From positions 1,742,858 through 1,806,857 of the forward strand of contig CP017950.1 of the NCBI GenBank assembly GCA_002838205.1: a stretch of 64,000 bases of DNA, read 5' to 3'. The notes beneath the pieces were generated by a model. It was not told the origin of the DNA and ran no database searches. It worked only from the letters and a program-made list of their open reading frames with translations. How positions within the stretch are numbered: the stretch's first letter is position 1; each line of letters opens with the position of its first letter. The position numbers and the translations under genes were made by a program. This document shows, one piece after another, positions 8,370-49,997 of the stretch. This stretch comes from Tenericutes bacterium MZ-XQ. Lineage in GTDB: Bacteria > Bacillota_I > Bacilli_A > Acholeplasmatales > Acholeplasmataceae.

Positions 8370-8612
8370 ATCTTCATTCCCTCCTAATTAAAAACACAGT
8401 CCTATTGAGAGAACTGCATTCCCTCCCCCTATGGTCTTTTATTTATATTATATCATGCCTATTTATAAATAACAGGTCATTTATGCCAAAATAAAAAGAA
8501 AAAAGGTCCAGTTTTTAATGCTTTTTTAACCATTTGCTGTAATCACTTTGATAGTCCCCGTTTAATAATAAAACTGTGTTCAAGATAAATACTGATTTTG
8601 TATAACTCATAA

Positions 8613-20346: not shown

Positions 20347-20367
20347 GAAATTAACTTAATAAGAATT

Positions 20368-20602
20368 GTTGGTGTATTTTTATACATAACAGGGAATCAA
20401 GTTAAATGCTTGAGCTGTCCCAGCAACCGTGATACAGACGAAATGCAAATAACCACTGCTTATAGCGGGAAGGTGCATAGTAGGATGAAGTTTAGCCGGT
20501 AGACCTACCAATACATTCGAATGAGTAACAGTCTTCTGGGATTAAAGAGTGTAAATAACTTCTTTTTTGTTATTTGCCATGTCCCAGTGACATGGTTTTT
20601 TT
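20368..20602 (+). promoter_or_regulatory. cobalamin (AdoCbl-type) riboswitch with terminator
   Basis: The conserved blocks of the cobalamin riboswitch appear in order: GGTG at 20371, AGGGAATC, GAGCTGTCCCAGCAACCGT, CCACTG, GGGAAGGTGC, GGATGAAG, the B12-box-like AGCCGGTAGACCTACC, and GTCTTCTGGGATT near 20531-20543. Downstream is a terminator, CCATGTC (20577-20583) and GACATGG (20589-20595) with seven Ts, preceded by a small AAATAAC/GTTATTT hairpin. The expected behaviour is transcription-off when cobalamin binds. It controls the three genes that follow. The aptamer call rests on established family sequence; switching direction is inferred from the terminator. Confidence 0.95.
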
Positions 20603-49037: not shown

Positions 49038-49297
49038 TATGGAATCCTCCAATATTTTGTAGAATTTACTAACAAATGATTTTATATGTGTTTGATACAT
49101 TTTACCATATATAGAAACAATTTTGAAGAATATATTATAGATATTTAATTTTTTATAAAAAATATAGATAAATAAATTGAAAATATCAACTATGACCATT
49201 TAAAGCCAAAAAAAGAAATGTAAATATTTTCGCGTAAATCAAGTTAATTTGTTTTTGTGACATTTATTTTACTCTAGATATATGACTTTATATATGT

Positions 49298-49367
49298 TAC
49301 AATGTTTAAGGACATAGACTTTTTTAATCCCCCAAACTCTTTAAAAAGGTCTGTGTCTATTTTTTTT
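49298..49367 (+). ncRNA. putative 58-nt small RNA 1 with C-rich loop (with its promoter)
   Basis: TGTTACAAT (extended -10, TACAAT 49298-49303) predicts a start at 49310, exactly the first base of an 18-pair uninterrupted stem (49310-49327 with 49341-49358, three G-U pairs). The loop is TCCCCCAAACTCT. Eight Ts follow (49360-49367). The next downstream element repeats the design. No reading frame is present. Existence is predicted from promoter plus terminator only. Confidence 0.55.
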
Positions 49368-49407
49368 CAAAAATACTTCAAAAACTATTTTATAATAAAA
49401 ATAAATA

Positions 49408-49480
49408 TGATACAATAAAAAAAGGAATACAAGTCCGCTCCCCTCCCCAAAATTGTGATGCGGTCTTGTATTCCTTTTTT
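49408..49480 (+). ncRNA. putative 58-nt small RNA 2 with C-rich loop (with its promoter)
   Basis: TGATACAAT (extended -10, TACAAT 49411-49416) predicts a start at 49423, next to a 15-pair stem with one mismatch (49424-49438 with 49460-49474). The 21-base loop starts TCCCCTCCCCAAAA. Six Ts follow. On the other strand the same hairpin lies downstream of the leftward promoter region, and the GNAT gene ends within its T-run, so it also terminates that gene. It may be only a terminator; the matching upstream element argues otherwise. Confidence 0.5.
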
Positions 49481-49997
49481 ATTTCATTTCTAGTTGATAG
49501 ATGATATGTTCATAAGGTTCATCTCTAAACCATTCCGTTTTTGTTCCCTGTGGTTTAAATCCGAATGCTGATACAAGTTTGATTGATGATTGATTGTCTT
49601 TATAAATCACAGCTTGTACATACTTTAGATCAAGTACTTCTTTCATATAAATCAGCATTGTCTCTAATGCTTCTTTCATATATCCTTGATGATTATATGG
49701 TTTTCTCAGATCGTATCCGATATCAATAGTCTTTAAATCGTTGTTGTAATTATGAAATCCGATTGTTCCAATTTTTTCATTTTCTTCATTCATTAAGATA
49801 TATCTGTGATTGTAATATTGAACTGTGTTTAAATAAAACTCAATCAGTTCTTTTGCTTCATCAAGATTTGTCAATGGTTCTGCATCGAATAGATATTGAT
49901 TGATGAAATCGTTAGAAAACTGTTGATACATGAAATCTATATCATCCATACTTATATGCTTTAGTGTTAATCTTTTAGTTTTTAGTTCTTTAAACAT
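49479..49997 (-). CDS. RimJ/RimL-type GNAT acetyltransferase
   Basis: 172 residues. TKRLTLKHISMDDIDFMYQQF at the start and the GYDLRKPYNHQGYMKEALETMLIYM acetyl-CoA loop region are typical of the RimJ/RimL subgroup that acetylates N-termini of ribosomal proteins or small amines. The YKDNQSSIKLVSAFGFKPQG block completes it. A ribosome site AAGGAGAATC precedes the ATG. Its target is unknown. Confidence 0.86.
   Translation of the reverse strand: MFKELKTKRLTLKHISMDDIDFMYQQFSNDFINQYLFDAEPLTNLDEAKELIEFYLNTVQYYNHRYILMNEENEKIGTIGFHNYNNDLKTIDIGYDLRKPYNHQGYMKEALETMLIYMKEVLDLKYVQAVIYKDNQSSIKLVSAFGFKPQGTKTEWFRDEPYEHIIYQLEMK

Follow-up and report, generated by a model that had tools for sequence, protein, structure and literature searches.

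The window, by which we mean the whole 64,000-nt stretch analysed, covers positions 1,742,858-1,806,857 of a 2.157-Mb single-contig genome (G000), which from its relatives and gene content appears to belong to an Acholeplasmataceae-like bacterium. Two short predicted transcription units lie in tandem on the plus strand, flanked on one side by a PAS-GGDEF-HD signalling gene (46341 to about 49052, minus strand) and on the other by a GNAT-like acetyltransferase gene (49479-49997, minus strand), the convergent neighbour of unit 2. An earlier note on this DNA had described a common plan for the two units, in which an extended -10 box is followed by a long stem with a C-rich loop (TCCCCCAAACTCT in unit 1, TCCCCTCCCC... 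in unit 2) and the transcript ends in a T-run some 58 nt from its expected start; we found all of these elements in place.

Unit 1 is a predicted RNA of 58 nt (49310-49367, plus strand) with an expected start at 49310, an 18-bp stem, the loop UCCCCCAAACUCU and a T8 tail. Its extended -10 box, TGTTACAAT (49295-49303, plus strand), was recognised in the sequence and by a promoter scan, and is missing in the sister species G001. Unit 2, with a predicted length of about 58 nt (49423-49480, plus strand) and an expected start at about 49423, has a stem of about 20 bp, the loop UCCCCUCCCCAAAAUUGUGAU and a T6 tail; its box, TGATACAAT (49408-49416, plus strand), was recognised in the same two ways. In the promoter scan the -35 matches were weak for both units, that of unit 1 being TAGATA with a 17-nt spacer. 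A direct repeat, TTCAAA-N5-TTCAAA (49366-49382, plus strand), precedes unit 2 and is possibly a regulator site; it is also found upstream of another C-rich RNA, type Y (see below), in both species. Judged by sequence, each unit has its own promoter and intrinsic terminator, is intergenic and contains no ORF. A convergent gene faces the units in G000 as well as in G001, thus their promoters serve nothing downstream.

Folding and rarity of the two units

The hairpin of unit 1 is strong on the plus strand only (-21.3 kcal/mol vs. -10.6 kcal/mol on the minus strand), and its folding energy has a z-score of -6.0. For unit 2 the z-score is -11.1; with neither unit did any of 200 shuffled sequences fold as well. 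The second hairpin is about equally stable on the two strands (-27.9 kcal/mol on the plus and -27.5 kcal/mol on the minus strand). Read on the minus strand (49418-49480), its stem ends at the stop codon of the GNAT gene and is followed by a T7 tail, and it can likely also terminate that gene.

The unusual feature of the locus is the combination of promoter box, stem and C-rich loop, not the promoter-like box alone. The promoter scan by itself was not significant, with 23 promoter-like sites in 3 kb where 22 were expected. As background for the hairpins we used 464 kb of G000 (the window and 20 sampled stretches), which contained 120 intergenic terminator-like hairpins. In five of these an extended -10 box lay no more than 15 nt upstream of the stem, and three had a C-rich loop; the two properties coincided only in units 1 and 2, which adjoin each other. 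The window contains the loop segment CCCCTCCCC of unit 2 a single time, and none of 100 shuffled versions contains it.

Conservation in the sister species

In G001 the signalling gene is retained (83% identity), and the gene on the other flank is FAD-dependent dehydrogenase-like, the GNAT gene being missing at the corresponding place. The segment 49369-49416, which leads into the promoter of unit 2 and includes it, is identical at 47 of 48 positions; in the intergenic sequence farther upstream only 120 of 228 positions are identical and there are many gaps. The loop of unit 2 (CCCCTCCCC; UCCCCUCCCC) is identical in the two species and thus offers a conserved single-stranded C-rich (UCCC) segment. 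The stem has diverged in a way that preserves the pairing: two pairs show compensatory changes, one mismatch is mended by a double change, and two further changes turn a G-C into a G-U pair on the plus strand, where the minus strand would have C-A, so that both strict one-side changes keep the plus-strand stem paired. Altogether 19 of 21 pairs are kept despite ten substitutions in the arms, for which a simple simulation that ignores mutation bias gave a P of about 0.001. Unit 1 is represented in G001 by an eroded 3' remnant that has neither a promoter nor a stable hairpin.

A covariance model of unit 2 matched, among 88 genomes of the family, only G000 and G001 as unit 2; a weak match in G002 turned out to be a terminator that follows a 4-alpha-glucanotransferase-like gene. 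Only G000 has a well-formed unit 1, probably a sibling of unit 2 that is younger or confined to this species. The search in related genomes for the pair and for covariation, which the earlier note had proposed, gave a divided answer: unit 2 recurs with a covarying stem, and the pair is not conserved.

The same note had reckoned with the case that relatives keep just the second hairpin, as terminator of the GNAT gene. Hairpin 2 alone is indeed what is conserved, yet it stands with its promoter beside a different gene. We consider it unlikely that this hairpin serves only the minus-strand gene (GNAT in G000, the FAD-dependent dehydrogenase in G001) as a plain intrinsic terminator, with an incidental plus-strand box and C-rich loop. 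On the minus strand it does abut the stop codon of GNAT and carry a T-run, and the structure on this strand is in both species nearly as stable as that on the plus strand (-27.5 kcal/mol in G000 and -24.2 kcal/mol in G001). However, a minus-strand terminator needs neither an almost identical 48-nt stretch beyond its T-run nor an invariant loop, the two G-U changes favour the plus strand, and unit 1, weak on the minus strand, would be left unexplained. Since the neighbouring gene has changed and the promoter was kept with the hairpin, hairpin 2 is not merely the GNAT terminator. The comparison shows, at the sequence level, that unit 2 and its promoter are conserved as a plus-strand unit independent of the neighbouring gene. 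The proposal of the earlier note that both units encode small RNAs thus holds up better for one than for the other: because promoter and loop are conserved, the stem covaries and the neighbouring gene has changed, unit 2 is likely a real plus-strand small RNA, and for the lineage-specific unit 1 the same status is plausible.

Possible targets of the C-rich loop

The analysis did not support the targets named in the earlier note. The first of them was GGGGGAGGG in the leader of a YobI-like gene (8421-8429, minus strand). This site can form eight pairs with the loop of unit 2 and is mostly unpaired and accessible. Its distance to the start codon, however, is 51 nt, and a comparable site in the leader was not found in the genome of G001. 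In a target prediction with the loop sequences, also put forward in that note, the duplex energies against 411 start regions, from a sample of about 20% of the genome, were no better than those of shuffled loops. The number of start regions at -12 kcal/mol or better was 21 for unit 1 (vs. 31 with shuffled loops) and 95 for unit 2 (vs. 90). These cofold estimates make no provision for kissing loops, and they could underestimate the pairing.

The 8-base complement of the unit 2 loop, GGGGAGGG, has four sites in G000, one of them being unit 2 itself. The other three are in the YobI-like leader, in the leader of a CoA-transferase gene, and on the strand opposite a C-rich hairpin linked to tmRNA. 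The CoA-transferase site is common to G000 and G001 and occurs as GGGGAGGGG in other genomes of the family. In nine family loci (L013, L014, L016, L018, L023, L025, L026, L083 and L084) the CoA-transferase leader begins with a G-rich hairpin (GGGGAGGG or GGGGAGGGG...CUCUCCCCUC), placed where the transcript is expected to start. We rejected this site as evidence of pairing with unit 2, because it is paired within its own hairpin and is present also in genomes without a match to unit 2.

These results bear on another reading, in which the two transcripts exist and bind a protein, for example an RNA-binding one, or serve as decoys, for example by sponging other RNAs, and do not pair with start regions of mRNAs. 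Such a role would agree with the lack of excess complementarity at start sites, and with the fact that the most complementary sites in the genome are few and two of them are linked to hairpins. We nevertheless regard it as rather improbable: the C-rich loops of small RNAs in low-GC Gram-positive bacteria are documented binding sites for mRNA (PMC4132741). By analogy with these RNAs, the units would most likely function through base pairing of their C-rich loops, either with G-rich leaders or with ribosome-binding sites.

Other RNAs with C-rich terminator loops

A scan of five genomes of the genus for C5 followed by a T-run identified a wider set of similar RNAs. Most matches of scans with a promoter-CCCC-T pattern were due to chance, since a reversed control gave similar counts. 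Type X, present in all five genomes, is located in G000 at C1:1289186-1289315 on the minus strand (L140; the others are L144, L146, L147 and L149), upstream of an OmpR-type response-regulator gene. It is about 130 nt long and consists of a promoter, a long 5' hairpin with a ACCUUUUUUG loop and a terminator with a C7 loop. In the five genomes the 5' hairpin has six pairs with compensatory changes, and the C-rich terminator is invariant across about 45 nt. With a covariance model of type X, relatives were detected in two further genera of this family. Some of these precede an OmpR-type response-regulator gene; a second group, two-hairpin RNAs of genus g3 (L175-L183, L186), lies between ABC-permease-like and esterase-like genes, about 50 nt before the latter. 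The g3 RNAs could be cis-acting leaders or small RNAs, and more generally, family members whose C-rich terminator stands before a gene on the same strand may be cis-acting leaders. Model R2 had one site in G000, outside the window.

Type Y is a stand-alone RNA (G000:915686 and G001:475394; L141 and L143), which has the upstream motif TTCAMA-N5-TTCAMA in common with unit 2. Genome-wide there are four sites of this motif in G000 and two in G001 (one and two with the reversed pattern), counts that are not far above the control for a pattern defined post hoc, after its sites had been seen. Both G001 sites are at the promoters of unit 2 and type Y. We also looked before the C-rich RNAs for a Rex-type operator (TTGTGAA-N4-TTCACAA) and dropped this candidate, as a good match was present at type Y only. 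Related C-rich-loop terminator hairpins follow the tmRNA (L155) and a tRNA-Thr (L103:2436-2483), and G003 and G004 also carry single-hairpin C-rich units with promoter-like boxes.

Types X, Y and Z of these Acholeplasmataceae-like bacteria resemble the two units in having a promoter, a terminator hairpin with a C-rich loop and a T-run, but they are 100-130 nt long and possess an additional 5' hairpin with a U-rich (ACCUUUU-like) loop. Units 1 and 2, with one hairpin each and without the ACCUUUU-loop hairpin, are not members of type X. The comparison of genomes shows that further predicted C-rich-loop terminator RNAs are conserved in the genus and in the family, which supports the design proposed in the earlier note. 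The family architecture, a 5' hairpin followed by a C-rich terminator, would also fit a single RNA of about 170 nt made of both hairpins by read-through of unit 1, but this is very unlikely, given that a strong stem followed by T8 closes unit 1, and that in G001, with unit 1 destroyed, unit 2 still has a promoter to itself.

Discussion

On balance we favour the interpretation that the locus encodes two very short separate RNAs whose C-rich loops pair with G-rich stretches of mRNAs, the second hairpin doubling as terminator of the opposite gene. Transcription would start at two separate plus-strand promoters, and each RNA would consist of hardly anything but its intrinsic terminator, whose long stem presents an open C-rich loop. 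The loop could make the first contact with G-rich stretches in the Shine-Dalgarno region or the leader of mRNAs, and the pairing may block translation or alter mRNA stability. Unit 2 might be controlled, together with type Y, by a regulator binding TTCAMA-N5-TTCAMA. On the minus strand the hairpin of unit 2 would serve the opposite gene.

In kind, the units resemble the known C-rich small RNAs of Gram-positive bacteria, here pared down to one terminator hairpin. UCCC motifs located in the loops of Listeria LhrC, that of the terminator included, bind the lapB leader, and the UCCC motif has also been reported at work in RNAIII, RsaE, SprD and FsrA (PMC4132741). LhrC1-5 are similar to the units in the UCCC motifs of their loops, including the terminator loop, in the presence of several homologous copies per genome, and in the way a C-rich loop meets the ribosome-binding region (PMC4132741). 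The differences are also clear: LhrC has two stem-loops and three CU-rich sites, each of our units is a single hairpin of about 58 nt, the sequences are unrelated, and the pairing targets of the units are putative. A C-rich unpaired stretch in a low-GC Gram-positive setting is likewise found in RsaE/RoxS, RsaA, SprD, FsrA and IsrR of Staphylococcus and Bacillus. The C-rich stretch of these RNAs has been proposed or shown to bind Shine-Dalgarno sequences. They are longer than units 1 and 2 and have a different structure. We found little literature on small RNAs of Acholeplasma-like bacteria.

More tentatively, the Acholeplasmataceae may possess an undescribed network of C-rich-loop terminator RNAs, which would range from two-hairpin molecules down to the single-hairpin, 58-nt terminator-only form of this tandem pair, be partly under one shared regulator (TTCAMA-N5-TTCAMA) and act on G-rich leaders. 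If this is true, a regulatory RNA can shrink to nothing more than a terminator hairpin with an active loop, and the UCCC-type regulation by C-rich RNAs of Staphylococcus, Listeria and Bacillus also reaches low-GC bacteria on the Mollicutes side. The conserved loci would then form a ready list for testing.

Searches of Rfam at gathering and relaxed thresholds gave no family for the units of the window or their relatives, nor was there a match to the wider set at the loci scanned (for type X L140 and L144). No sequence or structure match to LhrC was found; apart from chance-level matches at the relaxed threshold, Rfam detected in the window only a cobalamin riboswitch. This riboswitch (RF00174, E = 3e-19) is located at positions 20353-20526 on the plus strand.
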